NCBI GenBank assembly: GCA_021904315.1
Contig: CM038915.1
Coordinates: 19,592,001-19,656,000 of the forward strand
Direction of reading: 5' to 3'
Source of the DNA: Sphagnum magellanicum
Taxonomy: Eukaryota; Streptophyta; Sphagnopsida; Sphagnales; Sphagnaceae
DNA: 64,000 nucleotides
Part shown: one piece after another, positions 6,001-49,345 of the stretch
Layout of the letters: every line of letters begins with the position of its first letter
Numbering within the stretch: the first letter of the stretch is position 1
The notes under the pieces: generated by a model
Told to the model about the DNA's origin: nothing
The model's database searches: none
What the model saw: the letters and a program-made list of their open reading frames with translations, nothing else
Program-made: the position numbers and the translations under genes

Positions 6001-9000
6001 ACATAATTTCATATTTTTTCATTACATTATGTTCATACTTGTACAGAACCTACCCGTAACATTTAGTATTTAAATTAATGAAATTAAAATTAAAATGACA
6101 TGGACAATCTATGTTTGGCAACTTTTGGAAGTGATCAAAATATCTACTTACATGATAGTAGTAGTCACATCTGTGATGTCAGATGAATTGTAATCAACAT
6201 ATGAGATATTTGTTTTTGTAAGATTTAAGGATTGTAAATGCCCATCAATAGTGCCATTGGGCAACTTCCTACTCAAGCCTGAAATGTTTCCTATGTATAA
6301 GGTCCCATTGAAGTTGTTGTTGTCAAGATTCCTGAAAGAAGTAATTAGAGAAAGAAATTGCATTAGGTAGGCTTTGAGCCAATAGCCCCAACAATTTAGA
6401 CTTTTGGTTATTTGAAAAGTGGTTGTGATTCAAATCATCCTATTAATCATACTACACACTATTTATTATAACCAACTCAAATTCTCTAAAAAAGGTTGTT
6501 TGTTCAAGTAATTGTTAGAAACCATGTTTCGGTCAAATTTGGTTTAAAGGATTATGAATCCTTTTGTTTTATATTTAAAATGGAAAACTATAACATAATA
6601 TATATTAAGGTGAATCATGAAACATAAACTAAAAAAAATAAATTGCTTTGTTTTTTTTGTAATGTACACATTTAGATCAAGAATAATAAGGGTGTGATAT
6701 ATAAGTATAATCTTTGATTCTTGAAACTACATACACACATGTACATCAACTTGAACCAAGGTTGAAAACTTCTTACATGGTTTGTAATAGTGGAAAGGAA
6801 CTTGCTAATTGATATGGAAATGAACCAATTAAGCCACATCCACTTAGTGCTCTGCAAATATAACAATACCCGTAACCTTCATATTTTAATTTATGTTAAA
6901 TATGAGATCAAATGATGTGCCAAATATCAAACAACAATGTTTAATTCAACCTTAAAAGCTGAAAAGAAACATTGTCAATAGATTTAAATTGTATTCACAT
7001 AACAATCAACAATGTCAACCAATAATTATGACATTTAAAAACACAACTACATAATGATCAAATCATATATATTGTTAGGAACCAAATCACAAACCACCAA
7101 CTACCCTCTCAAGTGATGTGAGATTGTTATATCATTAATGCCCATTTACTATTTCAAAAGAAAAATCAACAACTAATAATCTAAATTTGATCTTGTTGGA
7201 GAAGTTTTTAGGTACATAAAATTAAAAAAGTCATTTGTCATAAGGGTTAGTTCATCATATTCATAGAAAACAAAAAGGCTTGGGAAAAGCATGTACTTAC
7301 AATGTTTGTAGTTGATTGAAGTCAGAAAGCCAAGTAGGAACTTGTGGTGAATTGAACCCACTGTAATTCAAATCCCTAATGTAACACATGAAGACAAATC
7401 TGTTAAAAATTTGGGTTTCATATGGATACATTAATTAGTGGTTTTCATAGTGGAAATATCAACTTCAAATGACCAGTGAGGAACAAGCAATGTGAACTCA
7501 CAATTGTTGTAAAGAGGTTCTGAATAAACCAAAGTCAGGCAAGGGGCCACTAAAATTGTTTCGTGATAAATCTAACACTTTCAAGTTGGAAGATGGATTG
7601 AAGATCGATGCAGGATGTAAAGGACCGCCAAAGTTGTTCATACTTAAATTCCTGAAAAATAATTTGCATTTCCAATACACAACTAGATCAAATGATTTAA
7701 CAACATTCAAAAGAATGGACCAAGGTAAAAAGTAGTAAGAAACATATCTTCTCAATTGGACAATTTGGTGAAAATCAGAAAATGCATCTAACCAAATTCA
7801 TATTCCACATAGAAACCTAAATCAAAAGACTATTTAATCATGTTTTAAAAAAAATAAAAATAAAAATAAATAAATAAATATAACATGTACATGTGATTTT
7901 TGGTTGCATGTTAATTGAGATGAAGAACACGTTATCCCACAAGAATTCTGATGTTCCATATCTTAGAAATTAGTTCTTAAAAAGAATGCATACACATGTG
8001 ACCAATTAAATATTTTCAAGCTACAACCATCTAAGAGCCATAACAAATTAAGAACGTACGAAAAACTAACAATACTCTTGCCATAAATTGTCTTGTCACA
8101 ATTCCAAGATTTAAATGGCATGATAAATTGGGAAAACTTCAACCATTTTAATCATTTGCAGTTCCCATTAACATGTGTCTTGCCACCTTTAGCAAATTTG
8201 CAATTTCTTTGCCCTTTAGATAAGGTTTATAATTATAAAGAGCAAAAATACTTATATATGTAGTGTTACATATGGATACACACATGAACAAACACCCACC
8301 TGATTTGAGCATTCTAATTTAATGTCCAATCTTAAGACATTGCATGATTTGTTTGAAAAGATAACCAAGGATGCAACACAGAAGAAAAGGAAATTTCCAA
8401 AATTTTACAATATTTCATAGTTCAAGAAATAGTCACTCACAAATATTGAAGCATGTGCATTCTTGTCAGGTTAGGTGGGGATCCAGACAAAAGATTATTT
8501 GACAGATCCCTACATGACAAAGATGAATGCTTAGAATCCAAATATATGTACACCTTCAACAAATATATTGTAATTTAGCAATGGGCATTCCAACAAGACT
8601 TGATATTAAGTACATCGAAAGTTGGAAGAAATCACTCAATACACATTCACTATGGAATTACACCTGGTAAACTTGAGGCCAAATATTAAAATCTCAAACA
8701 AGACCACATACACCAAGGAAAATGGTAATCTCATTTGTTTACTTAGGTGGTGAAACTTCATCTTACAAGGTTGTTAGAAATGTTAGGTTCGCAAGGCCAG
8801 TTGATGTGGTGCTATCAAGGAATACTGGACTTGGCCCAGATAATTGATTCCCGGACAGTTTAAGGGTTTCCAACCATTGAAAGCCACCAAAGTTGGGGAT
8901 CACCCCAGTCAATTGATTCCCACTTAAGTCTCTGAAATATGAACAAAAATGAATTAGTTCAATCTCTTCACTCTCCTCAATGTGGAAAGCGACAATAATC

Positions 9001-31453: not shown

Positions 31454-32708
31454 AAATTGTGACCCCTGTGCATAATGCACAGGTGAAATAAAAACCACCC
31501 CTTACCTTTCTGAAACCACAACCTGCTTACCTACCTATTCATCTACCTATCGAATTTCCTACCTACCTATGTGCTTTTTTTCCTACCTCCCAGGCTCTTG
31601 TACCTACTTTCTCATTTCCTGTTTTCTCACTACCCACCTTACCTACCTTCTCACTATTTCTCTCAAAAATCACCCCTTACCTTTCCAAAACCACAACCTA
31701 CCTACCTACCTATTGGGAACATATTGGGAACCCATTAGGAACTTAGAGGAAACATTGTGAGAACACATTGGGAAACAGGGAAAAATGGAAAAAAAAATCC
31801 TTCCCGCCCCCCAAACTTAAAAGGAATAAAAGCAAGGCACCTTGGGCCTTCCCATTGGCTGAAAGGAAAATAAATCCTCCCCCCCGCGCCCAAATAAAAC
31901 TTGCATGGAAAGGCCACTGTCCACTGTCCAAGTGGACATGGACTGTCCACCCTCCACACCAAATACAACTTGAAAACAAAAACCTCCCCTCCAGCCTCCC
32001 ACCACCCCCACCCGGGCAGAAAGCTGCAGTGTCAGGGACCGGACGGATGACGGACGGATAACGGACGGATGGGTGACGGACCGGACGGCTTCAGGGGATG
32101 CTTCATTTAAACATCCACGTGCCCGCAGCCGGTTGGGCCAACTGTCCGTCCGGATAGTAAAGGAAGGATGGTACCGACAATGAAGCCGCCCCTGAAGTCG
32201 AACGGACAGTGTACACTTTCTGCCGCTACTGCTTCGGTGACGTGCCCTGCACAGTTTCCAAAAGCCGGGACTTGGGGGCAATTCCAGTAGGAGGAAGAGG
32301 GTCTCCGTCCGACGGACAATACCGGGACTTTTGGGAGGAAGAGGGTCCATCCGTCCGATGGGCATAACCGGGATGGGGAAGTTTTAGGGGAAGTTTCATT
32401 TCATCCCGACGTCCTTTAATAGTTTCATCCATCCCGTCATCCGTAGCTACTGTCCGTCCGGATTCAGGGGAAGCTTCATTGTACTGTTCGTCCGGCTTCA
32501 GGGGAAGCTTCATTCTACTGTCCGTCCGGCTTCAGGGGAAGCTTCATTCTACTGTCCGTCCGGCTTCAGGGGAAGCTTCACTGTTCCTTTACTATATGTA
32601 ATAATCGTCCAGACGGATGGACAGAGGGACGACAGGGACGGATGACGAGACGCGCGGGTTCAGGGGCGGCTTCATTGTCGGTACCCATCCTTCCTTTACT
32701 ATATGTAA
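31454..32708 (-). mobile_element. Helitron H8, non-autonomous, worn 3' end
   Basis: The 3' hairpin CCTGTGCATTATGCACAGG (31,465-31,483 on the plus strand) is intact, but the expected terminal CTAG reads differently here (31,454-31,457), so this leftmost end is worn. The 5' end meets the CTAG of H7 at 32,709 and starts TTACATATAGTAAAGG, related to other 5' ends but without TC. Inside are CCTA-rich DNA shared with H5 (31,557-31,700), GGACGGAT-type short repeats (32,038-32,085) and three tandem 34-bp units holding CAGGGGAAGCTTCATT (32,483-32,585). The long open frame over 31,817-32,365 is a by-product of the repeats. Confidence 0.72.
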
Positions 32709-33318
32709 CTAGTGTGGGCCCCGTGCATAATGCACAGGTGAATTATATACCCCGTAGAGCCCCCCCCCCTGCCGGTCCTTCCCATTTTCCACTCTGGTTC
32801 TTTACCCCGTCGACCCCCCCCCCCTTCCGTCGGTCCTTCCCATTTTCCACTCCGGCTTTTTACCCCGTCGACCACCCCCCTTCCGTCAGTCCTTCCCATT
32901 TCCCACTCCGGTTCTTTAACTCGTCAAGCCCCCCCCGCCGGTCCTTGGCATTTCCCACTCCGGTTATTTAACTCGTCGATCCCCCCCGGCTGGTCCTTGG
33001 CATTTCCCACTCCGATTATTTAACCCGTCGATTCCCCCCGGCCGGTCCTTTGCATTTCTCACTCCGGTTCTTTAACTCATCGATGCCGCCCGACCGGTCC
33101 TTCGCATTTCCCACTCCAACTATTTAATGATTATGTGATTTTGTTATTTTTTATGAAATACCCTAACCCAGTGATTCTTTTGATTCTGAAAATTTTTCAA
33201 ATACCTAGAACTAATGAGTCCGGCTTGATGGAGGACGGGACGGATTGAGGGGAAGCCGACCAAACGCACGGATTTAAAGGAAGCTTCATTTGGTCGGGAC
33301 CATCGTTCGTTTACTATA
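32709..33318 (-). mobile_element. Helitron H7, non-autonomous, 610 bp
   Basis: The 3' end has hairpin GTGCATTATGCAC, then GGGGCCCACACTAG, ending at 32,709 on the minus strand. The 5' end begins TATAGTAAACGAACGATG at 33,318, five bases shorter than the full TCCTATATAG start, directly against the CTAG of H6. The 3' half is a GC-rich minisatellite of about 52-bp units (32,755-33,120). Confidence 0.82.
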
Positions 33319-33845
33319 CTAGTGTGGGCCCCGTGCATAATGCACAGGTGAGTTATATACCCCGTAGAGCCCCCCCCCCCTCGCCGGTCCTTCCCATTTT
33401 CCACTCCGGTTCTTTACCCTGTCGACCCCCCCCCCCTTTCCATCGGTCCTTCCCATTTCCCACTCCGGTTCTTTAACCCGTCGAGCCCCCGCGGCCAGTC
33501 CTTTGCATTTCCCACTCCGGTTCTTTAACCCGTCGAGCCCCCTCGGCCGATCCTTCGCATTTCCCACTCCAGTTCTTTAATGATTCTGTGATTTTGTTTG
33601 TTTTTATGAAATACCTTAACCCAGTGCAACAAAAACACAGACAAATCAACCCACATAAAAATTGTAATAACTGAAGAAAATTAATATATTAAATAATTAC
33701 AACAAAAATTGAGAGAAAATCAAAAACACATAAAATTTGCAAAAACTGCAACAAAACCACACACACACACACACAAAATCACTTGACTCTGATTGGACAG
33801 AGAAAAGAACAAAGAAAAGGAAGAGCTGAGGAAAGTCCAATAGTG

Positions 33846-34345
33846 GTACCGTCCTCAATATCCACATGCAATAACTCTCGAACAGCTTCCTTTAGGTGCA
33901 ATTAACCCTGATACTCCATAAACTCTTCAAGATGGGCGGAATCTTGATCTCGCGTTTGATCTTACCGTGCCATCATCAACACCCAGGCACAAAAAAGTAA
34001 CCCTTGTCAGATGTTCATGTAAAATACTATTATAGCAGGCGTAAAATCTTTGAAGAACCTGTCTCAACCATGTAAATTTCAAATTTCCGAAGGTCGTACC
34101 GTCCTTAATATCCACATGTAATAACTCTGGAGCAGCTTCCTCTAAGCAGCTTCCTCTAGGTGCAACTAATCCTGATACTCTAGAAACTCTTCAAGATCGA
34201 CGGAATCTTGATCTTGCGTTTGATCTTAACATGCAATCATCAACACCCAGGCACAAAAAAGTAACCCTTTTTAGATATTGATGCAAAATACTATTATAGT
34301 AGGCATGAAGTCTTTGAAGAACCTGTCTCAACCATCTAGACTTCA
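33846..34345 (-). repeat. 250-bp tandem duplication inside H6
   Basis: Two copies of about 250 bp, sharing TATCCACATG, CTCTTCAAGAT, ATCATCAACACCCAGGCACA and GAACCTGTCTCAACCAT. On the minus strand both read LRQVLQR...YNSILH...RVTFLCLGVDD with mostly silent or mild changes. It follows the CK2 alpha exon and its donor, so it may be captured intron or an unrelated captured exon. I do not recognise the peptide. Confidence 0.65.
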
Positions 34346-34392
34346 AATTTTCGAACGGCAGAGGCAACAAAAAAGAAAGAAACCCTCCTTAC

Positions 34393-34478
34393 CCCCATTG
34401 AACAGTTAGGGCTTCATAGTCGTAGTAGTCTTTGGGACGTTGAACATTCACGGTCGCACAAACTCGGGTGTTGGACAT
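34393..34478 (-). pseudogene. captured first coding exon of casein kinase 2 alpha
   Basis: The minus strand reads [20 protein letters not shown] and on to YEALTVQWG, then a GTAAGG donor. Plant CK2 alpha starts MSKARVYTDVNVxRPKEYWD then YESLTVQWG, so this is its N-terminus ending at a real splice donor. CK2 alpha is the catalytic subunit of a Ser/Thr kinase, but only 29 residues are here, without the ATP-binding loop. The frame is open upstream through what is probably 5' leader (to about 34,600). It lies in Helitron H6 on the element's sense strand. No catalytic function is possible; it could supply a transcript start or a chimeric exon. Confidence 0.85.
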
Positions 34479-35023
34479 AACACCCGGCCGTCGTATCGAC
34501 TTTCCTTCCTTTTGAGCTACTGACAGAAGGCTGAAGATGCTTGAGATGAAGTAGTTCTTTGATAGAGCAAACTGGTTGTGGTTGTGATCAGTTTCCATCT
34601 TGGTGGGCAGAAAGCTGCAGTGTCAGACTCAGCAGAGGGGTGGTGTGCAGTCAGTAACCTCATCGGTGCATTACAAAATTGACCGGAAAACAACAAAAAA
34701 AAACATTATTTATGCACCATCCAGCAAGCAAGCAACACATGGAGGATGATGATATATCTAAATAGGGACATGGATGGAGGGCCATTCCTGGTTTATTTCC
34801 TTCCCATTCTTGGTGGCCAGAAACCTGCTGTGCAGTGTCAGATGTATTTTTAAAAAATATGGGAAAGATAACACACCTGTCCACACACACGGACGGACAG
34901 AGGAGGGATGGGGGGACGGATGACGGGATGCGCGGGTTCAGGGGCGGCTTCATCGGGCGGCTTCAGGGGCGACTTCATCACGCGGAGTTAAGGGAGGCTT
35001 CATCCTTCTTTTAATATAAGAGA

Positions 35024-35905
35024 CTAGTGTGAGCCCTGTGCATAATGCACAGGTGAAATAAAAATCCCACTCTCTCCCAAAACCACAACCTACCTACCTA
35101 TCGAATTTCGTACCTACCTATGTGCTTCTTTTCCTACCTCCCAGGCTCTTGTACCTACTTTCTCATTTCCTGCTTTCTCACTACCCACCTACCTACCTTC
35201 TCACTATTTCTCTCAAAAACCACCCCTTACCTTTCCAAAACCACAACTTACCTACCTATCTACCAACCCACGTACCTATCAAATTTCCTACCTACCTATG
35301 TGCTTCTTTTCCTACCTCCCAGGCTCTTGTACCTACTTTCTCATTTCCTGCTTTCTCACTCCCCACCTTACCTACCTTCTCAATATTTAATTACTACTGT
35401 CCTTAATCCGGACGGACAATAGCTACTGGACTTAAATGGAAATTGTCCATAGCCACTGTCCGTCCGACTCGAAGGGACGCTTCATTCGTCTTATCACCAA
35501 CATCTGCCTTTCCTTTTCTCTACAATAATTCTCTACCCTAAATTACAACATACCTAGCAATACCTATTCAACACCAACACCCTGTCTGTATATGGGATAA
35601 AAGGGAGGTGCTGCTGTTAGGAGCTCTCTGGGGAACATGACATGAAGTTGGGATCTCTTTGCTTTGATTTCCCCCCACTGGGAAAAAAAAAAAAAAAAAA
35701 AAAAGGCTTGGATAGAAAGTCAACTGTCCAAGTGGACAGTCTGCTGCCTCCCCTGACTCCGGACGGACACTGTCACCAATCACTACTCGCCACGCGGACC
35801 ACATGATGTTCGAACGGCTTCAGGGGCGGCTTCATCACGCGGCTTCAGGGGCGGCTTCATCGCGCGGAGTTAAGGGAGGCTTCATCGTTCCTTTAATATA
35901 AGAGA
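35024..35905 (-). mobile_element. Helitron H5, non-autonomous, 882 bp
   Basis: The 5' end TCTCTTATATTAAAGGAACG starts at 35,905 directly against the CTAG of H4. The 3' end has a perfect 9-bp stem (CCTGTGCAT/ATGCACAGG) and CTCACACTAG ending at 35,024. Contents: GGCTTCAGGGGCGGCTTCAT repeats near the 5' end, an A run at 35,683-35,704, and two copies of a CCTACCTACC-rich unit (35,109-35,390) also found in H8. No gene was recognised. Confidence 0.85.
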
Positions 35906-36538
35906 CTAGTGTGGGCCCCGTGCATAATGCACAGGTGAGTTATATACCTCGTAGAGCCCCCCCCCCCCCCTGCCGGTCCTTCCCATTTTCCACTCCGATT
36001 CTTTACCTCGTCGACTCCCCCCCCCTTCCGTCGGTCCTTCGCATTTCCCACTCCGGTTCTTTAACCCGTTGAGCCCCCTCGGCCAGTCCTTCGCATTTCC
36101 CACTCCGGTTCTTTAACCCCTCGAGCCCCCCTGGCCGGTCCTTCACATTTCCCACTCCGGTTCTTTACCCCGTCGACCCCCCCCCTTTCCGTCGGTCCTT
36201 CGCATTTCCCACTCCGGTTCTTTAACCCGTCGATTCCCCCCGGCCGGTCCTTGGCATTTCCCACTCCGGTTCTTTAACCCGTCAATTCCCCTCAGCCGAT
36301 CCTTCGCATTTCCCACTCCGACTATTTAATGATTCTGTGATTTTGTTATTTTTTATGAAATACCCTAACCCAGTGATTCTTTTGATTCTGAATTTTTTTC
36401 AAATACCCAGAACCAATGAGTCGGGCTGGATGGATGACTGGACGGATTCAGGGGAAGCCGACCAAACGCACGGCTTTAAGGGAAGCTTCATTTGGTCGGG
36501 ACCATCGGTCGGGATCATCGTTCGTTTACTATATAGGA
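35906..36538 (-). mobile_element. Helitron H4, non-autonomous, 633 bp
   Basis: Complete by its ends: 5' TCCTATATAGTAAACG at 36,538 directly against the CTAG of H3, and 3' hairpin plus GGGCCCACACTAG ending at 35,906. Most of the 3' half is about seven units of the 52-bp GC-rich minisatellite (35,948-36,325). It carries no coding sequence. Confidence 0.88.
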
Positions 36539-37577
36539 CTAGTGTGGGCCCCGTGCATAATGCACAGGTGAGTTATATATCCCGTAGAGCCCCCCCCCCC
36601 CCACCGGTCCTTCCCATTTTCCACTCCGGTTTTTTACCCCGTCGACCCCCCCCCCCCTTCCGTCGGTCCTTCCCATTTCCCACTCCGGTTCTTTAACCCG
36701 TCGAGCCCCTTCGGCCAGTCCTTCGCATTTCCCACTCCGGTTCTTTAACCCGTCGAGCCCCCCCGGTCGATCCTTCGCATTTCCCACTCCGGTTCTTTAA
36801 CCCGTCGATCCCCCCCGGCCGGTCCTTGGCATTTACCACTCTGATTATTTAACCTATCGATTCCCCCCGGCCGGTCCTTCGCATTTCCCACTCCGGTTCT
36901 TTAAGCCGTCGAGCCCCCCCTGCCGATCCTTCCCATTTTCCACTCCGGTTCTTTACCCCGTCAACTCCCCCCCCCCTTCCGCCGGTCCTTCGCATTTCCC
37001 ACTCCGGTTCTTTAACCCGTCGAGCCCCCCCGGCTAGTCCTTCGCATTTCCCACTCCGGTTCTTTAACCCCTCGAGCCCCCCTGGCCGGTCCTTCGCATT
37101 TCCCACTCCGGTTCTTTACCCCGTTGACCCCCCCCTTTCCGTCGGTCCTTCGCATTTCCCACTCCGGTTCTTTACCCCGTTGACCCCCCCCTTTCCGTCG
37201 GTCCTTCGCATTTCCCACTCCGGTTCTTTACCCCGTTGACCCCCCCCTTTCCGTCTCTCCTTCGCATTTCCCACTCCGGTTCTTTAACCTGTCGATTCCC
37301 CCCGGCCGGTCCTTGGCATTTCCCATTCCGGTTCTTTAACCCGTTGATCCCCCCGATCGAGCCTTCACATTTCCCACTCCGGTTCTTTAACCCGTCCATT
37401 CCCCTCGGCCGATCCTTCGCATTTCCCACTCCGACTATTTAATGATTCTGTGATTTTGTTATTTTTTATGAAATACCCTAACCCAGTGATTCTTTTGATT
37501 CTGAATTTTTTTCAAATACCCAGAACCAATGAGTCGGGCTGGATGGATGACTGGACGGATTCAGGGGAAGCCAACCC
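36539..37577 (-). mobile_element. Helitron H3, non-autonomous, lacks its 5' end
   Basis: The 3' end (CTAG at 36,539-36,542 with hairpin) is intact. The body holds about 16 units of the 52-bp minisatellite (36,585-37,440), the longest array here. The 5' subterminal text GAATCCGTCCAGTCATCC is present, but the terminal 90 or so bases seen in H4 and H1 are missing where it meets the 3' end of H2 at 37,578. Confidence 0.82.
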
Positions 37578-37984
37578 CGCGTGTGGGCCCCGTGCATAAT
37601 GCACAGGTGAGTTATATACCCCGTAGAGCCCCCCCCTCGCCGGTCCTTCCCATTTTCCACTCCGGTTGTTTACCCCGTCGACCCCCTCCTTTCCGTCGGT
37701 CCTTCCCATTTCCCACTCGGTTCTTTAATCCGTCGATTCCCCCCGGCCGGTCCTTGGCATTTCCCACTCCGGTTCTTTAACCCGTCGATCCCCTCGATCG
37801 AGCCTTCACATTTCCCACTCCGGTTCTTTAACCCGTCAATTCCCCCCGGCCGATCCTTCGCATTTCCCACTCCGACTATTTAATGGTTCTGTGATTTTGT
37901 TATTTTTTATGAAATACCCTAACCCAGTGATTCTTTTGATTCTGAAAATTTTTCACATACCCAGAACCAGTGAGTCCGGCTACA

Positions 37985-39069
37985 ACCTCAGAACCATCTC
38001 CTACCATCAATGCAGCGACTTCATCGGCCGTTGGCACATTGTATTGGCAGGCATCCTTTGTTCGAGAGGCAATGAGACGCAATTTCAGATCCATGGGAGC
38101 ACCTTCTGTTGCCATCATATCCCTTGCCATTTTGAACACTTCGACATAGGGATTGATATTGTACATCATGGTCAACAACTGATCCAACGTCGTTGGATCA
38201 AGCAAAGGCATAACAGCATGCCGGTTTTGACGTTCACGTTTCGTATCATGAATGTACAACTGTGCAAACTGTGGCCGTTGTCCTTCGGCAGGACACAAGG
38301 ATCCGATTTTGTGATAAAGTTCACCTTGAATGCGAAAGGAGTACGGTCCAGGGCCTCCTGTTACCGAGTCATCAACTTTGGCACCGAGCGAAGTGAATGC
38401 CAACACTGAATTGTACATGCGAATTCCATCTCGAAATTTGACGGCACTACTCTCTTTGCTGGTTAAAAGAACTTCCAGCTCTTGCGGTGTTGCAGGAAGA
38501 TTCGGTAACAGAACTTTGCCATTTTCGCAACACATAAAAAATTGTGGGTTGTTGTTCGTTGAATTTGCTGATCGTTCTTTGATCCACATTTTCGCGCTGC
38601 ATAATCCACATATTGTGTCCATTTCTCCAAAATCCCATCGTCCCGGGGCTAACGCATTTGCATCTGTAAAGAATTGTAATGCATCATTGCGAAGAAAAGG
38701 TTGTTCACGTTGCTTAGCACGCCGTTCTCTCTGTAGGCGATTGCGACGTTCTCGTGCAGATTCTGACATGCCTTGAGCTGACGCATCTCCATCTCTAAAC
38801 AATTGTAATGCGTCATTGCGAAAAGAAGGGTGTTCACGTTGCCTAGCACGCCGTTCTCTCCGTAGGCGATTGCGACAATCTTGTGCAGATTCTGACGTGC
38901 CTTGAGCTGACGCATCTCCATCTCTAAACAATTGTAATGCGTCATTGCGAAAAGAAGGCTCTTTACGTTGCTGACCACGCCGTTCTCTCTGTAGGCGATT
39001 GCGACGTTCATGTGCAGATTCTGACGTGCCTTGCGCTGAAGCATTTTTCTCTCCAAACAATTCGAGCAT
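37985..39069 (-). pseudogene. truncated Helitron Rep gene in H2
   Basis: This is the same as the first 362 or so residues of the Rep frame in H1: the three 43-residue basic repeats and the CxxC-bearing N-terminal domain. It ends at the H2 chimera point, after GDGSEVV, and then runs about 27 residues into unrelated non-coding DNA to a stop at about 37,900. The HUH nuclease motif and the helicase are absent, so no transposase activity is expected. A truncated N-terminal protein could act as a competitor, which is only a guess. Confidence 0.85.
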
Positions 39070-40933
39070 GTTGGGGCGGGGGGTTTCTCCTACACTCTTC
39101 GAGAAAGGTCAAGGTTACACATAAATTAATTTGTAAATCCCCATCAAATCCAGATGATTTAAGATTAATGGAAAGTTCGCAAAGTTCTCAATGATCTAGC
39201 GCTAAACTAAAAGTTTTTTTTTTAATTTACTTTCATGTGTTTTTTTTTTTACTATTCTTTTGTATAATAAAAATAAAGTGTTTGTTTTTCACTTTTTTAT
39301 TTTTGATTATTTTGTCATTTTTTTTAATTTTTATTTTCTTAAATTCCTACTTTTTTTTGGGTTTTATCTTTTTTGTAATTTTTTTGTCTCTTAAAATTTT
39401 CCTGTATTTCTCTTTCGTTGTTTCAATTGTTTCCATGCCTTTTTTCTATTTTTTATGTTTTTACTTTTTTTTTGTTTATGTTTGTTTCATGTTTTAATTA
39501 GTAAGATACAAAATTGCTTTGATGACAATATAGTCTGATGGGCATTCAATTGAACAAAGAAAATCCAATCTCTGAGTGCATGGAAAGAAATGGTACGAAA
39601 CAGAATTACAGTGCATAATGTATATAGTCTTTGTGACATACTTGAGTGTGGACCCCCGAACGAATTTGAAGGCTTTTAATTCTCTCACCTCCCCTACCAA
39701 AGATCAACCCAACCTGGGAAAACCAAATGAAATGCTCAATTTCAGATTTGTGGAGTCCACAACTTCAACATTCACTAATCGGTATATGAATCAGAAAGTT
39801 GCGGCAGCCTCGCTATATTCTTGCCAAAAACCGGGTACCATTACGTCAATCACAACCCATATGGTTCCGTCCACGTATGCATTCCACCGGGCAGGCAACC
39901 TGGCTCCCTCCCTCCTTCCGTCGGTCCCATGTGTGAGTCTCGTTCTGTTTCTCTCCCCAGCGGTTTTTTATATTTTTCCAATTGCTGCTAAAAGAAAAAA
40001 GAGAGAAAAAAAAAGGCCTAGGAAAAAAGTGAGAGCAAGGAAAAAAAAAAACATGATAAGAAAAAGGCTCAAGGGAAAAAAAAATTAAAAAACTACTGAC
40101 CAAATAAAAAAAGAGAGGAAAAAAAAGGCCCATGAAAAAAGTGAGAGAAGGGGAAAAAAAAAGCATGATAAGAAAAAGGGTCAAGGGAAAAAGAAAAAAA
40201 AAAAATACTGACGAAGTAAACTGACCCCTGGGATTTGTGGCTTACCTGCTTTCCTTCACTGTCGGTAACTTTAGGGCCTCGCTATATTCTTGCGAAAAAC
40301 CGGGTACCATTACGTCAATCACAACCCATATGGTTCCGTCCACGTATGCACTCCACCGGGCAAGCAACCTGACTCCCTCCGTCCTTCCGTCGGTCCCATG
40401 TGTGAGTCTCGTTCTGTTTCTCTCCCCAGCGGTTCTTTATATTTTTCCAATTGTTGCTAAAAGAAAAAAGAGAGAAAAGAAAAGGCCCAGGAAAAAAGTG
40501 AGAGCAAGGAAAAAAAAAAACATGATAAGAAAAAGGCTCAAGGGAAAAAAAAATTAAAAAACTACTGACCAAGTAAAAAAAGAGAGGAAAAAAAAAGGCC
40601 CATGAAAAAAGCTCTTTTGTTGCTAAAAGAAAAAAGAGAGAAAAAAAAAGGCCCAAGAAAAAAGTGAGAGCAAGGAAAAAAAAAAAACATGATAAGAAAA
40701 AGGCTCAAGGGAAAAAAAAATAAAAAAACTACTGACCAAGTAGAAAAAGAGAGGAAAAAAAAGGCCCATGAAAAAAGCTCTTTTGCTGCTAAAAGAAAAA
40801 AGAGAGAAAAAAAAAGGCCCATGAAAAAAGTGAGAGCAGGGGAAAAAAAAGCATGATAAGAAAAAGGGTGAAGGGAAAAAGAGAAAAAAAAACTACTGAC
40901 GAAGTAAACTGACCTCTGGGATTTGTGGCTTAC

Positions 40934-41126
40934 CTGCTTTCCTTCACTGTAGGTAACTTTAGGGCCAAGTTTGGCATCATTCGGGCCTCCAAGCTCCAAG
41001 ATCCTCACTTCCCAGTGCCCCTTCCCACGAATCAGCTTGTCGATTTCCCAGGCCCGGATTCTAAATATCCATGACTTTACATCCTATTTCTCGGCTTGTA
41101 GAAACGTACTCCTCATTTCGGGCCAT
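40934..41126 (-). pseudogene. captured ISY1 5' fragment (copy in H2)
   Basis: Identical to the fragment described at 48,221-48,413, at an offset of 7,287. It opens with MARNEE, then REIGCKVMDI and a stop, and resumes in another frame as IDKLIRGKGHWEVRILELGG, ending KVTYSEGKQ at a GTAAGC donor. ISY1 is a spliceosome (NineTeen complex-associated) protein. The piece is too short to function. Confidence 0.85.
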
Positions 41127-41662
41127 GTTTTCACAGAAATCTGACTCTACCTCTGTCTCTATCTCTCTCTCTTTCTTCCCACCGAGGTTCAGTACATGAC
41201 CCTGCAAAAATATTTCCACCGTCCGTCCGGAGTGAGCAGGTGCTGAGTGTAAAAACCCCGGCTGCATGTAAGAGGGAGAGGAGGAGGAGGAGGAGGAGCA
41301 GAAGCCACTTCTGGTGGCAGCACATGGAAGGTCACCTGGAAGGTCACCGACGCTAGAACCAATGAGTCCGGGCTGGATGGATGACTGGACGGATTCAGGG
41401 GAAGCCGACCAAACGCACGGCTTCAAGGGAAGCTTCATTTGGTCGGGACCATCGGTCGGGATCATCGTTCGTTTACTATATAGGACTAGTGTGTGCCCCG
41501 TGCATAATGCACAGGCGTGTGTATTTGACGGTACATATTATAAAATGGTGCTCAATGATATTGGTGTCGCAGTTACTTTGTTTATTTTAAATAAAAAATG
41601 TAGTATGAATCCATTTTTGCCTCTGCATTTGACGATACATATTACAAAATTACACCTACCAA

Positions 41663-44194
41663 CTACATTTCCAAAACCTCTTTATATACAACATTTCGCA
41701 TGTATCCATCAGGACCCCGGCTGTTGAAAATCTTAATGTTTGCACTACTTGTGACCCGTGAAATAGCAACATAGAGCTGACCATGGGAATAAACCGGAGA
41801 CGGCAAATATACCCCAACGTTGTTGAATGTTTGACCTTGACTCTTGTTGATTGTGATCGCAAATGCCACTCGAACTGGAAATTGACGACGACGCAAAACA
41901 AATGGCCAATCAGTCCCGGAGGGGGACATGATGATGCGAGGTATGAACACACGTTTGCCGACATTGTTTCCTGTGATGATTTCCGCTTCAATGACACGCT
42001 GACCCAATCTTTTGACAATCAACCTCGTACCATTGCACAATCCTATTGATTGATTGAGATTACGCAACAAAAGGATTGGCACACCCATTTTGAGTTCGAG
42101 CTCATGATTTGCGATACCGCTAAATCGCAAAGTGTCTAAAAATTCCACTGGATACAATGAATCCATTGAAACTCCTGCAGCAACACTTGCACCTTCTTCT
42201 GTTGGGGTCAAAGAATTTGCGCTCAGGTACGTGTGCGATTCTTCAGATAGCGATTCTAAAATTGCATTGTTGACTTCATCAACATCAGTATTTTTAGGGG
42301 CTAGAATGCTGCGTTGCATAAGATACATGGCATCTCCAGAGTGGCATTGGTGATCCGGATAGATGGTTCGGATTAATCCTCTTAAGTTGCAATCTTCTGC
42401 TGGCAGCCTCATATGGGGTGGAATCTTGATCCAATTTGGATCGGCACCTTCTTCTCCTGCAATGGCAGGAAGACTACCGTCTCCAACATTCAACACCCAT
42501 TTGGCAAATTCTCGCTGCTCTTCGGAATTGGTTGCCATGACTCGTATGTTGATATGAAGACAAAGAATTGTAACATGCTGCCAAAGATACGATCGAAGCA
42601 AGGAAGCACTGACAATGTCTTCTCGTCCTCCCTTGGGAACCACAGGTAAGATCTGTCGAAAATCCCCACCAAGGACCATGGTTTTTCCACCAAAGATTTT
42701 CTCGGTTGCTTGTGCGTCATCCAACTGCATCAAATCACGCAAGGTGCGATCAACAGCTTCGAAAGCTCGGCGATGCATCATCGGTGCCTCATCCCAAATG
42801 ATTAGATCAGCTTTACGCACCAACTCCGCCACTTTCATTTGTTGTGTGATGTTGCAAGTTGACTCATCGTGCAGGTCAATTGGAATTTTGAATCTTGAAT
42901 GGGCGGTTCTGCCGCCCGGAAGTAACAAAGATGCAATTCCTGATGAGGCAACTGCAAGCACGATTTTGCCTTGCCCTCGTAGACGGGACAAAAGTGTTGT
43001 CCAAACAAATGTTTTGCCAGTCCCACCACTGCCATACACAAAGAACAGCTTGCCCTGTTTGTTTGTCACGGCATTCAAAATAGTTTCGTATGCGTTTCGT
43101 TGATCATCATTGAGCCTATCTTCTGCATTGTTCGCATCTGTGGTCAATGAATGCCGATCATAAGCCAGTTCTTCTTGGACCAATCGGTTTCCCCCATGAA
43201 CAGAAGGGATGTAATTAGACTTGGGAAGGGTTGGAAAATCTTCCAGGCGGTGTCCATTGCGGATGAGAACCTGATCGATCTCATACAGTGCACGATCCTT
43301 CAACACATCCTCAGGAAGGGTGACAGTTGGATCAGCACGCTCGCAGCGTGTCATTGCTTCAATGTCATCGCTCAAAGACTCCCAATGTGCATCCCATAGT
43401 TGTCTGGGGTTCGTGACCTCGCAAAACATCAACATGGAGGCAAACATGTCACGCAGCTGCCGTCCTGAGGCCCAAACACTGGCTTCTTCCAAGGCTTGAT
43501 GCCATTCATTGTCGTTTGCAAGCAAACCCATCGCAATGCATGCATCTTTGAATGTGTCGTGCACTCTGCCATCCACTGTCCGCAAATGTTCGTAAGATGT
43601 GGCACCTTTGACGCAATTCAGCAGCATTCGCAAATAGTAACGTTCACCCGATGTCGGGTGTGCATAATACATGCGACCAATGGCAAAGCCTTGTTTGCGC
43701 AATGTCCATCGCTTCAACTTTTGATTCCACACCCATTGTTGAGGGAATTGATCGAACGTAAGGCTTCGTGCAACTTCCGATTCTTGGTTTGTTTTGAACC
43801 ATTCTGTCAGCATCGTTCTGGAAATGGCTGACCGTGTTGCCACTTCTTGTACATCATCGTCATCGCGAAACAACACCATCTGCTGATTGGGCAAATGGTA
43901 TTGCAAACGCTCAATGGTAGGAAAACACTCATGCATATCAAACTTGAAGATGCGCCACGCTGCTTCCGATGCAGATACATAGCGACAGTCGAGATATTTT
44001 TTTATTTCATCAGTATCGACCACATTTCCTTCGGTGGCATTGTCGCTTTGGCGCGAGATCTCAACAGTCGCACGATCATGTCCTTTATATACGTACTTGA
44101 ATAGATACTTGACTGCACGAATGTTGTTGCAGACCTCAACATTGATGTGCGCATCATATTTGGTCGATAAAAGACATTGTGCGGTACCACCCAA
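41663..44194 (-). CDS. Helitron transposase: catalytic Tyr motif and Pif1-type helicase
   Basis: An open frame of 843 codons that continues the Rep/helicase protein. It begins with the end of Rep, including [12 protein letters not shown], whose two tyrosines (about residues 30 and 34) match the catalytic Tyr pair of Helitron HUH nucleases. A SF1B Pif1-family 5'-3' helicase follows: Walker A GSGGTGKT (about 386-393), Walker B IIWDEAPM (about 463), [11 protein letters not shown], and the C-terminal INKSQGQTF and LYVAISRV motifs. It ends [15 protein letters not shown]. It would unwind donor DNA during rolling-circle transposition in the nucleus. The listed start is only the first Met of the frame; the true protein would continue from Rep, which is in another frame in this copy. 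All helicase motifs look intact. Confidence 0.9.
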
Positions 44195-46356
44195 CGATTG
44201 TCCAATTCAATGCCATGAACCAAAATTGTGCGCCCCGTATTTCTACGCCGATAAATAGGGTATCCGTTTACATCCGTCACCGTCTCGGATTGGAACTTGC
44301 GTGGATATTGTTTTTTGCATTTGCCTTCTTCCATGCACGGGGCATTTGGGAAAGCAGCTCCACATGGACCATGCATCGTGCATCTGGCAATTGTCTCGTG
44401 GGTTAACTTGTTTGTTTCTGAATTCGGAAGTTCAGCACTGATCATGCGGTCCACGTCCTCGACCGTGTGTGGCTTGCAATCTTCGGTAAAGAAGATGAGA
44501 ATGTGTGCATGCGGCAGCCCACGCTTTTGAAATTCAACGACATAGATTCCTGCAATCGTGCATCCCAAAATATGGTTCTTGTGAATGTCATTGACCAACT
44601 CCTTCAGCTTGATTTTGAACACTCGGGTTACCAAATCGGGTCGATCTTGAGGTTGTTGTCCGAGCAACAACGCTTTCTTGATTTCAAGCCATTGGGGATT
44701 GCAAGTGAATGTAACAAACGCATCCGGGGAGCCAGCCCATCTACAGATTGCCATGGCATCTTGATAATTTTGAACCATGTTACGTGGACCTACTGTGAAA
44801 GAAGATGGCAAAATGATCCTCTGTCCGATGGCAGCAGCGCTAGTGTCACCTGCAGCAATGGCGTCTTGAAGGCCTTGATAAAGATCCGCACGAAGTTTTT
44901 TTTGATTCAGGCGCAGATACTTCAAGCGATTTTGTTCGATACTCGCATAGGCATCCACAATGTATTGTTGCCGTAATTGGCCACCCCGAAGCAACGCAAT
45001 GCCATCGTTGTCTCGATGTTGAAGTCGATAACCATAAAATTCCGCCATCGTCACATTGCAATGCTTTCTTTGAAGCTCAGATTTTCTCGCATGGTCTTCA
45101 TCCAAATTTGCATCAGCAACAATAGCATTGATCAGAATATTCGGATGCCATCCATCCTCACCGTAAGGAAATAACAACGGATAATGTAGAGCCATGTATC
45201 CGACATGTAGTTCAGAAATGTGCTGAAGCGGGCCAGCTTGCCGAGCAAGGACGACGTCACGTCTGTCTACAACCTCAGAACCATCTCCTACCATCAATGC
45301 AGCGACTTCATCGGCCGTTGGCACATTGTATTGGCAGGCATCCTTTGTTCGAGAGGCAATGAGACGCAATTTCAGATCCATGGGAGCACCTTCTGTTGCC
45401 ATCATATCCCTTGCCATTTTGAACACTTCGACATAGGGATTGATATTGTACATCATGGTCAACAACTGATCCAACGTCGTTGGATCAAGCAAAGGCATAA
45501 CAGCATGCCGGTTTTGACGTTCACGTTTCGTATCATGAATGTACAACTGTGCAAACTGTGGCCGTTGTCCTTCGGCAGGACACAAGGATCCGATTTTGTG
45601 ATAAAGTTCACCTTGAATGCGAAAGGAGTACGGTCCAGGGCCTCCTGTTACCGAGTCATCAACTTTGGCACCGAGCGAAGTGAATGCCAACACTGAATTG
45701 TACATGCGAATTCCATCTCGAAATTTGACGGCACTACTCTCTTTGCTGGTTAAAAGAACTTCCAGCTCTTGCGGTGTTGCAGGAAGATTCGGTAACAGAA
45801 CTTTGCCATTTTCGCAACACATAAAAAATTGTGGGTTGTTGTTCGTTGAATTTGCTGATCGTTCTTTGATCCACATTTTCGCGCTGCATAATCCACATAT
45901 TGTGTCCATTTCTCCAAAATCCCATCGTCCCGGGGCTAACGCATTTGCATCTGTAAAGAATTGTAATGCATCATTGCGAAGAAAAGGTTGTTCACGTTGC
46001 TTAGCACGCCGTTCTCTCTGTAGGCGATTGCGACGTTCTCGTGCAGATTCTGACATGCCTTGAGCTGACGCATCTCCATCTCTAAACAATTGTAATGCGT
46101 CATTGCGAAAAGAAGGGTGTTCACGTTGCCTAGCACGCCGTTCTCTCCGTAGGCGATTGCGACAATCTTGTGCAGATTCTGACGTGCCTTGAGCTGACGC
46201 ATCTCCATCTCTAAACAATTGTAATGCGTCATTGCGAAAAGAAGGCTCTTTACGTTGCTGACCACGCCGTTCTCTCTGTAGGCGATTGCGACGTTCATGT
46301 GCAGATTCTGACGTGCCTTGCGCTGAAGCATTTTTCTCTCCAAACAATTCGAGCAT
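44002..46356 (-). CDS. Helitron Rep (HUH nuclease) N-terminal part
   Basis: An open frame of 784 codons. Residues 1-129 are three 43-residue repeats built on [18 protein letters not shown] and [14 protein letters not shown], highly basic. Next come the Helitron N-terminal zinc-like region (CGLCSAKMW...FMCCENGKV, about 140-175), the Helitron_like_N region ([11 protein letters not shown]), Rep motif 1 ([10 protein letters not shown]) and the HUH motif PHAHIL (about residue 615). The frame stays in register to about NVF (near 44,175), after which the homologous sequence is in the next frame; the last 55 or so residues listed are out of frame. The Tyr pair needed for strand cleavage is therefore in the helicase frame, and this copy is probably not active as it stands. 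Confidence 0.9.
45966..46354 (-). repeat. three tandem 129-bp units coding Rep N-terminus
   Basis: Each unit encodes 43 residues containing [16 protein letters not shown] (or near) and RNDALQLF. The unit is a multiple of three, so frame is kept. The same array is at 38,679-39,067 in H2. DNA identity between units is high, which suggests recent expansion inside the gene. Confidence 0.85.
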
Positions 46357-48220
46357 GTTGGGGCGGGGGGTTTCTCCTACACTCTTCGAGAAAGGTCAAG
46401 GTTACACATAAATTAATTTATAAATCCCCATCAAATCCAGATGATTTAAGATTAATGGAAAGTTCGCAAAGTTCTCAATGATCTAGCGCTAAACTAAAAG
46501 TTTTTTTTTTAATTTACTTTCATGTGTTTTTTTTTTTACTATTCTTTTGTATAATAAAAATAAAGTGTTTGTTTTTCACTTTTTTATTTTTGATTATTTT
46601 GTCATTTTTTTTAATTTTTATTTTCTTAAATTCCTACTTTTTTTTGGGTTTTATCTTTTTTGTAATTTTTTTGTCTCTTAAAATTTTCCTGTATTTCTCT
46701 TTCGTTGTTTCAATTGTTTCCATGCCTTTTTTCTATTTTTTATGTTTTTACTTTTTTTTTGTTTATGTTTGTTTCATGTTTTAATTAGTAAGATACAAAA
46801 TTGCTTTGATGACAATATAGTCTGATGGGCATTCAATTGAACAAAGAAAATCCAATCTCTGAGTGCATGGAAAGAAATGGTACGAAACAGAATTACAGTG
46901 CATAATGTATATAGTCTTTGTGACATACTTGAGTGTGGACCCCCGAACGAATTTGAAGGCTTTTAATTCTCTCACCTCCCCTACCAAAGATCAACCCAAC
47001 CTGGGAAAACCAAATGAAATGCTCAATTTCAGATTTGTGGAGTCCACAACTTCAACATTCACTAATCGGTATATGAATCAGAAAGTTGCGGCAGCCTCGC
47101 TATATTCTTGCCAAAAACCGGGTACCATTACGTCAATCACAACCCATATGGTTCCGTCCACGTATGCATTCCACCGGGCAGGCAACCTGGCTCCCTCCCT
47201 CCTTCCGTCGGTCCCATGTGTGAGTCTCGTTCTGTTTCTCTCCCCAGCGGTTTTTTATATTTTTCCAATTGCTGCTAAAAGAAAAAAGAGAGAAAAAAAA
47301 AGGCCTAGGAAAAAAGTGAGAGCAAGGAAAAAAAAAAACATGATAAGAAAAAGGCTCAAGGGAAAAAAAAATTAAAAAACTACTGACCAAATAAAAAAAG
47401 AGAGGAAAAAAAAGGCCCATGAAAAAAGTGAGAGAAGGGGAAAAAAAAAGCATGATAAGAAAAAGGGTCAAGGGAAAAAGAAAAAAAAAAAATACTGACG
47501 AAGTAAACTGACCCCTGGGATTTGTGGCTTACCTGCTTTCCTTCACTGTCGGTAACTTTAGGGCCTCGCTATATTCTTGCGAAAAACCGGGTACCATTAC
47601 GTCAATCACAACCCATATGGTTCCGTCCACGTATGCACTCCACCGGGCAAGCAACCTGACTCCCTCCGTCCTTCCGTCGGTCCCATGTGTGAGTCTCGTT
47701 CTGTTTCTCTCCCCAGCGGTTCTTTATATTTTTCCAATTGTTGCTAAAAGAAAAAAGAGAGAAAAGAAAAGGCCCAGGAAAAAAGTGAGAGCAAGGAAAA
47801 AAAAAAACATGATAAGAAAAAGGCTCAAGGGAAAAAAAAATTAAAAAACTACTGACCAAGTAAAAAAAGAGAGGAAAAAAAAAGGCCCATGAAAAAAGCT
47901 CTTTTGTTGCTAAAAGAAAAAAGAGAGAAAAAAAAAGGCCCAAGAAAAAAGTGAGAGCAAGGAAAAAAAAAAAACATGATAAGAAAAAGGCTCAAGGGAA
48001 AAAAAAATAAAAAAACTACTGACCAAGTAGAAAAAGAGAGGAAAAAAAAGGCCCATGAAAAAAGCTCTTTTGCTGCTAAAAGAAAAAAGAGAGAAAAAAA
48101 AAGGCCCATGAAAAAAGTGAGAGCAGGGGAAAAAAAAGCATGATAAGAAAAAGGGTGAAGGGAAAAAGAGAAAAAAAAACTACTGACGAAGTAAACTGAC
48201 CTCTGGGATTTGTGGCTTAC

Positions 48221-48413
48221 CTGCTTTCCTTCACTGTAGGTAACTTTAGGGCCAAGTTTGGCATCATTCGGGCCTCCAAGCTCCAAGATCCTCACTTCCC
48301 AGTGCCCCTTCCCACGAATCAGCTTGTCGATTTCCCAGGCCCGGATTCTAAATATCCATGACTTTACATCCTATTTCTCGGCTTGTAGAAACGTACTCCT
48401 CATTTCGGGCCAT
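48221..48413 (-). pseudogene. captured ISY1 5' fragment (copy in H1)
   Basis: On the minus strand, the sense strand of H1, an ATG opens MARNEE, the usual ISY1 start, and continues YVSTSREIGCKVMDI to a stop. In another frame follows IRAWEIDKLIRGKGHWEVR then ILELGGPNDAKLGP and KVTYSEGKQ at a GTAAGC donor (48,220). ISY1 proteins carry MARNEE..., REIGRKV.EIQNEG and EINKLIREKGHWERRI then VELGGPN, so middle parts are deleted. A CT/GA-rich stretch upstream (48,440-48,475) looks like its 5' leader. The short text TGCTTTCCTTCACTG also recurs at 47,534-47,548. ISY1 is a pre-mRNA splicing factor; this piece cannot work as one, but its start region could drive transcription of the element. Confidence 0.85.
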
Positions 48414-48772
48414 GTTTTCACAGAAATCTGACTCTACCTCTGTCTCTATCTCTCTCTCTTTCTTCCCACCGAGGTTCAGTACATGACCCTGCAAAAATAT
48501 TTCCACCGTCCGTCCGGAGTGAGCAGGTGCTGAGTGTAAAAACCCCGGCTGCATGTAAGAGGGAGAGGAGGAGGAGGAGGAGGAGCAGAAGCCACTTCTG
48601 GTGGCAGCACATGGAAGGTCACCTGGAAGGTCACCGACGCTAGAACCAATGAGTCCGGGCTGGATGGATGACTGGACGGATTCAGGGGAAGCCGACCAAA
48701 CGCACGGCTTCAAGGGAAGCTTCATTTGGTCGGGACCATCGGTCGAGATCATCGTTCGTTTACTATATAGGA

Positions 48773-49345
48773 TATGTAATATCAGTACCGATGATTCTTG
48801 TAGGGCAACATGCATTAATTAGTATTAGAGAGCGTACCCACTCGCCAATAAAAGCGTACTGAATTATGACGGTTGTCAGAAGTGAGGACAGTCGGCACTC
48901 CATGCCAAGCCTCAACAACAAAGTGAATCCTTGAACGTAAACGATCTCATGGATGATGATTCGCTGTCATTTAAGTGGGTTAAGTAGTGTTCCAGGTCTG
49001 ACATTCGGCATCACGGCGAGAAGTGGGTTGACAGGTCCATTTGGAGGAAGCTTGTTGCATAGGATGCGTTCAATGCAACACACCCATTGAGTAGCTTGTC
49101 ACCTTCTCGGCGACTACAAACCTCCAGCTTCGATAAAGCTAGCCTACAGGGCCCACAGTCAACAATCACCCACCAGCTCACATCCACTCGACGTCTCTTA
49201 TTATGCAGTTGTGGATGAACCTCAACTGAGTTCATATTTGGTTTCGTCTGGGTAATCAATTTTGTAGGAAATAGGTCTCATGTGTAGGTAGATAGTGAGG
49301 AAAATAGGGAACTACTATGTATGTAGATAGTTTGTACATACTCCA
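48773..49345. other. right flank of the Helitron block, possible coding remnant
   Basis: The stretch 48,800-49,260 has a more balanced base composition than the host DNA around it. On the minus strand 49,259-49,011 is open for 82 codons and another frame reads QWVCCIERILCNKLPP and then MPNVRPGTLLNPL. I cannot assign either to a family. It may be a worn gene or transposon piece. Confidence 0.3.

Follow-up and report, generated by a model that had tools for sequence, protein, structure and literature searches.

Head-to-tail Helitrons in Sphagnum magellanicum, probably arrayed by serial insertion at the 5' ends of resident copies

How do Helitrons that differ from one another come to stand end to end and all in one orientation? 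The question is raised by a block at positions 31454 to 48772 of a 64,000-nucleotide stretch of the Sphagnum magellanicum genome (assembly GCA_021904315.1, contig CM038915.1, positions 19,592,001 to 19,656,000 of the forward strand), hereafter the window. An initial annotation had described the block as eight joined Helitrons with captured genes, and had proposed as its origin either rolling-circle bypass or repeated targeting of an element's own junction. In the accessible text of two papers, Helitrons placed in this way are interpreted in either of two ways, as rolling-circle concatemers or as successive insertions (PMC2267711, PMC5148889). In Sphagnum, most resolved neighbouring units are unlike, they share a single orientation, they follow the A^T rule, they abut exactly, and one duplicated locus on contig C3 was hit repeatedly; we therefore conclude that the array probably formed by serial Helitron insertions at the 5' A^T of copies already in place, extending 5'-ward with a single orientation.

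The array in the window

The window contains eight exact copies of the 3' hairpin GTGCATTATGCAC, every one of them on the minus strand between 31468 and 41512, and none of 100 shuffled sequences contains it; the string CACACTAGT occurs six times, again always on the minus strand, against an expectation of 0.29. Six 3' ends bear CTAG, at 41486, 36539, 35906, 35024, 33319 and 32709 (minus strand). At the first four of them TCCTATATAG or TCTCTTATATT adjoins the CTAG directly, with zero spacer, while the CTAG at 33319 adjoins TATAGTAAAC and that at 32709 adjoins TTACATATAG. The 5' limit of the block lies at 48772, where the boundary reads ...GATATTACATA followed by TCCTATATAG. In all these details the initial annotation proved accurate. 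Its count of eight joined Helitrons stands for eight unit remnants, but only six joints retain an intact CTAG: the 3' end at 31454 has lost it and now reads CACAATTT, and at the hairpin at 37592 it is gone along with the first part of the unit that follows. With six joints, this is the longest array resolved in the genome.

All eight units, numbered here from the 5' side, lie on the minus strand. U1 (41486 to 48772, 7287 bp), the 5'-most, begins with TCCTATATAG after host ...TTACATA and ends with GTGCATTATGCACGGGGCACACACTAG; the flank before it (48773 to 48783, minus strand, GATATTACATA) supplies the A of the A^T target. U2 (37578 to 41485) opens with 3512 bp that match U1 at 99.886% identity (4 mismatches), continues with a minisatellite and closes with a hairpin at 37592 to 37604 without CTAG. 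U3 (36539 to 37577) lacks its 5' end, removed by a deletion across the U2/U3 joint, and keeps its CTAG. U4 (35906 to 36538, 633 bp) runs from TCCTATATAG to CTAG, and both U5 (35024 to 35905, 882 bp) and U6 (33319 to 35023, 1705 bp) run from TCTCTTATATT to CTAG. U7 (32709 to 33318, 610 bp) has its CTAG intact and begins TATAGTAAACG, where its relatives have a TCCTA-type end that is 5 nt longer. U8 (31454 to 32708), the 3'-most, begins with TTACATATAG and is the unit whose CTAG was lost. The canonical 5' TC is therefore present on U1, U2, U4, U5 and U6; U8 has TT, and U3 and U7 are truncated. The TATAGTAAAC of U7 may be a decayed end. At the 3' side, the units terminate in CTAG and a 13-nt palindrome stops 10 nt upstream, which is the canonical arrangement of CTRR and hairpin; the hairpin folds as DNA at -6.8 kcal/mol (z -2.62), and 3 of 200 shuffles folded equally well. 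The minisatellite, with units of about 50 bp (GAACCGGAGTGGGAAATGCGAAGGACCG...), recurs within several non-autonomous units, at window positions 36572 to 37883 and 32748 to 33127. An Rfam search of the window gave zero matches.

Joints across the genome

The genome-wide junction search that the initial annotation had called for (438,994,042 bases, 31 contigs) showed that the window is not unique. The 27-base 3' end was found at 980 places with at most one mismatch (457 + 523), and exact joints of CTAG with a TC end, over the two end types, number 22. A pattern of CACACTAG and then, at most 30 nt further on, the 5' core TATAKTAAASGAA recovered 64 head-to-tail joints (25 + 39), and its reversed control gave 0. 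The head-to-head counterpart of this pattern occurred 0 times genome-wide, and again 0 times with a shorter core on one side (controls 2 and 1). Forty of the 64 joints coincide with the exact boundary, 17 meet a 5' end that lacks three bases and one meets an end that lacks five; five lie 2-3 bases upstream of the resident end, and one is at 21 nt. In 63 of the 64, T continues after CTAG. A separate end pattern of the TATATTG type was found at 14 places with at most one mismatch, seven of them exact, and four of the 14 (TATATAG) were already within the 64. Among the sampled loci there are 55 distinct junction contexts, which reduce to 48 clusters once those whose alignment crosses the joint with 200 bp on either side are merged. 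Further arrays lie at C12:3.24 Mb, C6:8.21 Mb, C17:12.72 Mb, C9:9.95 Mb and C8:22.06 Mb.

Several further observations belong beside this census. The tail-to-tail pattern, CACACTAG N{0,30} CTAGTGTG, occurs at 14 places, each counted on both strands, with 4 and 4 in the control; one of them, C7:9056538, has no spacer, and we draw nothing from these matches, which are of the pattern only. At C6:8333184 and C8:11535380, joints of the form CACACTA/T that miss the final G of CTAG stand beside 5' ends. In the C12 array region (L083, C12:3238500-3248499), an autonomous-type element on the minus strand at about 4262 to 6115 is 96.5% identical to the 3' part of U1; it lies in the opposite orientation within that region and its CTAG adjoins a TATATATT 5' end. 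An unrelated repeat, TGCTTTCAACTATATACCAATATAGTAAACGAA, carries the same 13-base 5' core genome-wide, for example at C1:29838379 and C2:27861532.

How often a 5' end is occupied was estimated from two anchored 5'-end searches (204 and 143 matches genome-wide), with contigs C1 to C8 fully covered and all 163 rows on them sorted. A CACACTA(G)-type 3' end adjoins 33 rows, 72 are isolated canonical ends, and the other 58 are partly background (reversed controls 202 and 90), partly the unrelated repeat and partly TCATATATAG-like ends. Three of the 33 stacked rows have an altered 3' end (CACACTA without G, CAGTAG and CAGTAA). Canonical intact 5' ends are stacked in 23 of 95 cases (24%), and in 33 of 115 (29%) if the shortened types are included together with their ten uninterrupted counterparts, nine from the ATYATATATAKTAAASGAA-form search and one TTATCTATAG. 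For comparison, a rough estimate for random insertion over all A^T steps, which assumes 980 insertions, 300 5' ends and two A^T steps per end, gives about 0.007 such neighbours genome-wide. Approached from the other side, the first 30 3' ends in the list, which all lie on C1, include three that adjoin a 5' end (L014, L019 and L022) and 29 that are followed by T.

The isolated canonical ends on C1 to C8 define the target. The base before them is A in 71 of 72 and G in none, which together with the T that follows CTAG at the joints is the pattern of A^T insertion without target-site duplication; the wider flank reads AT[CT]A before the T at 30 of 72. Only 21 of the 72 start with TC, and 51 with TT(AC) (36 TTACA and 15 TTACT), which means that the TC rule does not hold for the family taken as a whole. 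The view that the TTAC-type TTACATATAG of U8 is a decayed end was accordingly rejected, TTAC being a regular isolated 5' end. The 5' ends of L061, L019 and L077 lie within (ATT)n or (ATC)n microsatellites, where ATYA^T targets are plentiful.

No single result speaks more strongly against concatemers and co-inherited joints than the one from contig C3, where C3:15766206 (L064) and C3:15804711 (L066), about 38 kb apart, are copies of one duplicated locus. Across the older element and its 3' side the two copies are 95.9% identical over 1556 bp, and a 206-bp alignment that takes in the 5' flank is 95.1% identical. Between the shared ...AACAAATCA and TATATATTAAAGG, one copy carries units of 292 and 1054 bp and the other a single unit of 679 bp. 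These newcomers sit at the identical TCA^TATATATT step and in the same orientation, with different 3' end types, and blastn between their bodies found no alignment apart from the ends. As judged from the alignments, then, two copies of one old Helitron were hit at the same base step and in the same orientation by different elements, and the duplicate serves as a natural experiment with two replicates. Loss and replacement in one copy after the duplication may be an alternative; it would itself require a second hit at the same step.

Serial insertion and its rivals

We propose that a newcomer would enter between the host A and the first T of a resident 5' end, or at an A^T a few bases away, on the same strand as the resident. 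Its CTAG would then touch the resident 5' T, and the A would stay at the outer edge, so that an A^T is rebuilt before the newcomer and can be used again. The outcome would be head-to-tail arrays of mixed members that extend 5'-ward, and in the window U1 would be the youngest unit and U8 the oldest. The window is consistent with this direction, with long Rep and helicase frames in U1 and a ruined 3' end in U8, although this is thin evidence for the order. The Rep-helicase protein, RepHel, might favour resident 5' ends because their terminal sequence is the very site that it nicks, strand-specific, with A upstream and AT-rich DNA downstream; the reaction that nicks the donor could thereby double as the choice of target and fix the orientation. 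With middling confidence, we suggest that RepHel uses the resident 5' terminal sequence as a strongly preferred, strand-specific target, each copy acting as a self-rebuilding landing pad, with about a quarter to a third of intact 5' ends stacked. In the bacterial transposons IS608/IS200-IS605, recognition of the target site resembles that of the left-end cleavage site, and insertion is oriented as a result. Those elements have no helicase and a four-base target, and the likeness is one of analogy only.

The neighbours that a newcomer acquires tell on which side of the resident it landed. Landing downstream of a resident would be non-canonical, because the 5' neighbour of the newcomer would then be G (G^T), the base absent from the isolated ends, whereas landing upstream, between host A and resident T, gives it canonical neighbours on both sides. 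Where the resident end is three bases short, the missing bases can be looked for at the outer edge of the chain. In resolved chains of this kind the outer flank is AT[CT]A in 8 of 10, compared with 24 of 65 elsewhere (Fisher p=0.013); from these ten L066 was omitted as a duplicate of L064 and L067 because its chain falls short of the outer edge, and L022 and L074 end in CTTA. Flank and remainder together read A followed by TCATATATAG, TCATATATATT, TCATATATTG, TTATATAATG, TTATATATAG or TTATCTATAG, and there are 27 uninterrupted ends of the ATYATATATAKTAAASGAA form genome-wide. A resident that is intact apart from the insertion is seen in both C3 copies and in 8 of the 12 chains before shortened ends; U7 and L062 are not among them.

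Several points weigh against serial insertion as we propose it. L062 does not close, since its flank is GTAA before the remainder TAGTAAACG. The window array does not close either: its outer edge is TTACATA before TATAGTAAACG, and the five bases that U7 lacks (expected TCCTA) are not there. When these two are added, the flank comparison becomes 8 of 12 versus 24 of 64 (p=0.06). As AT[CT]A is a general target preference, the cases that lie three bases inside may be elements that start at TATATAK; the conclusion on stacking holds either way, for if the element starts at TATATAK the newcomer sits at the exact boundary. A rolling-circle dimer or unequal exchange fits equally well the U1/U2 pair and a pair of units of 840 and 842 bp on C12. 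All our counts demand an exactly intact core or CACACTAG. Finally, Helraiser in human cells gave no clustering around donor sites among 701 re-insertions; the set comprises uniquely mapped reads only, a filter that may have removed insertions at the 5' ends of other copies, and in the consulted portions of the two reports we found no test of the 5' ends of other copies (PMC4778049, PMC5876387).

A different origin for the joints would be rolling-circle multimers, in which replication of a circular intermediate would run on past the 3' end and a concatemer of one element, joined CTAG to TC, would be inserted. Perfect joints without spacer and a single orientation are what it predicts, Helraiser circles with CTAG/TC joints are known from the available text on that element (PMC4778049, PMC5876387), and the near-identical U1/U2 and C12 840/842 pairs agree with it. 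The neighbours of a concatemer should be copies of one element, and this holds only for the C12 pair, in which 7 of 842 columns differ (five substitutions and one 2-nt indel), and for the 5' part of U2 against U1. Beyond these two, an identity of 95% or more along most of the length, gap columns ignored, was reached in only 2 of 22 resolved neighbour pairs, each with differing 5' end types; most of the resolved neighbours have unlike bodies, and their end types often differ too. Multimers would not be expected to place unlike newcomers at one and the same step in two copies of an old element, nor to leave spacers of 2-3 bases. We therefore reject the concatemer as the general cause, rate it quite unlikely as the explanation of the arrays, and retain it for the two near-identical pairs, so that multimers are at most a minor source. 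Of the two origins offered by the initial annotation, rolling-circle bypass fails for most resolved joints and is possible for these pairs, while repeated targeting is retained in a refined form, the site being the resident 5' boundary (A^T) instead of a 3' end or a preformed joint. Integration of a circle by homologous recombination, through a single crossover between a Helitron circle and a resident relative, would leave a CTAG/TC joint and two chimeric units. It accounts for orientation, perfect joints and mixed ends, circles have been reported, and U2 is chimera-like, with the 5' half of an autonomous element and a 3' end of another type. It is nevertheless very unlikely: blastn found no tract of at least 100 bp at 85% identity or more in 11 of 24 neighbour pairs, longer tracts below 85% being uncounted, the 2-3 base spacers (5 of 64) are not predicted, and unlike newcomers share one step in the C3 copies.

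Resident 5' ends might also be hit merely as AT-rich ATYA^T sites, with the Helitron end itself unrecognised and the orientation due to a preference for AT-rich DNA that is asymmetric and favours the 3' side. The ATYA flank at 30 of 72 isolated ends speaks for this, as does the preference of Helraiser for AT-rich DNA, strongest on the 3' side of the insert according to the parts of the reports available to us (PMC4778049, PMC5876387). We consider it unlikely, as the occupancy of 24-29% on C1 to C8 is far above the naive estimate and the head-to-head count is 0 and not just lowered; that the motif alone is insufficient is a matter of reasoning and not of a computed control. An assembly artefact, or duplication of one joint by unequal crossing-over, would suit the near-identical neighbours U1/U2 and C12 840/842. 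It is highly improbable for the whole, given 55 distinct junction contexts in 48 clusters on many contigs and with different units; in addition, the published Sphagnum divinum assembly (439 Mb, 20 chromosomes) is, by the part of its description at hand, PacBio-based with a contig N50 of 17.5 Mb.

Coding content, related systems and significance

U1 encodes its Rep and helicase in two overlapping open reading frames (ORFs) on the minus strand. ORF1 (44002 to 46356, 784 aa) matches Helitron_like_N (PF14214, 1.7e-57) and has an HUH motif (HAH) at residue 616; ORF2 (41663 to 44194, 843 aa) has the two-tyrosine motif YLFKY at residue 30, a Walker A motif and a PIF1 helicase domain (PF05970, 1.1e-88). 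ORF2 lies in a different frame from ORF1, through a frameshift or an intron, so that U1 holds all four features yet divides them between two frames instead of one fused RepHel ORF. The captured genes of the initial annotation did not materialise: eight ORFs from U2 to U8 gave no Pfam match above cut-off and one below it (E=0.093), and the recognisable genes of the array are only the Rep/helicase pair of U1 and a Rep fragment in U2. Genome-wide, PF14214 was scored at 150 places among 576 candidates. In the C6 array region, a Rep domain at C6:8218477-8219022 lies in an open frame of 1508 aa, apparently a stop-free RepHel frame. The 5' non-coding part of U1 has direct repeats (window 47094 to 48253), and the N-terminal part of its Rep ORF a 129-bp (43-residue) repeat (window 45935 to 46349). 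In the flanks of the window there are cytochrome P450 matches in five fragments, two of them above the family cut-off, one protein kinase fragment and one leucine-rich repeat fragment.

The closest precedent is the maize r1 region, where, in the text available of Du et al. 2008 (PMC2267711), two adjacent head-to-tail Helitrons with unlike contents, CTAG directly followed by TC, are read as consecutive insertions, and an A^T made of host A and resident 5' T is named as one possible target. There it was one pair, and the order stayed open since the line genotypes fitted G^T insertion or a later excision; here there are dozens of joints, a strict orientation and a duplicated locus hit twice. The tandem Helitrons of Myotis (Pritham and Feschotte, as cited in the consulted part of PMC2267711) have perfect head-to-tail joints with no host A between them and were read as tandem repeats, unlike our arrays, in which most resolved neighbours differ. 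For Fusarium and Metarhizium, the accessible sections of PMC5148889 describe FoHeli4 inserted 2 bp upstream of the 5' end of another copy, and three tandem copies ascribed to two 5'-end insertions or to a rolling circle; these are few cases and non-canonical Helitrons, and we found no census of frequency or orientation in those sections. With Helraiser the family has in common TC/CTAG ends, a hairpin and the A^T target; RepHel nicking at the 5' end is described for Helraiser in the portions consulted, in which we did not find self-targeting described (PMC4778049, PMC5876387). The main text of the published Sphagnum divinum genome paper, as far as accessible, does not use the word Helitron. Tandem Helitrons are thus already known, and insertion at a 5' end had been proposed for single maize and fungal cases; the frequency, the strict orientation and the repeated hit at a duplicated locus seem to be new, as we did not find them in the open-access literature searched.

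With about a quarter of the sampled intact 5' ends stacked, all in one orientation, and with the double hit on C3, the two readings of head-to-tail Helitrons become distinguishable. If resident 5' ends are indeed preferred, the arrays would be readable insertion histories with the youngest unit at the 5' side. The family would then have a transposon-encoded choice of site that herds insertions onto its own kind and yields mixed arrays of one orientation, and Helitrons would follow a rule of target choice like the one that bacterial HUH transposons obey.

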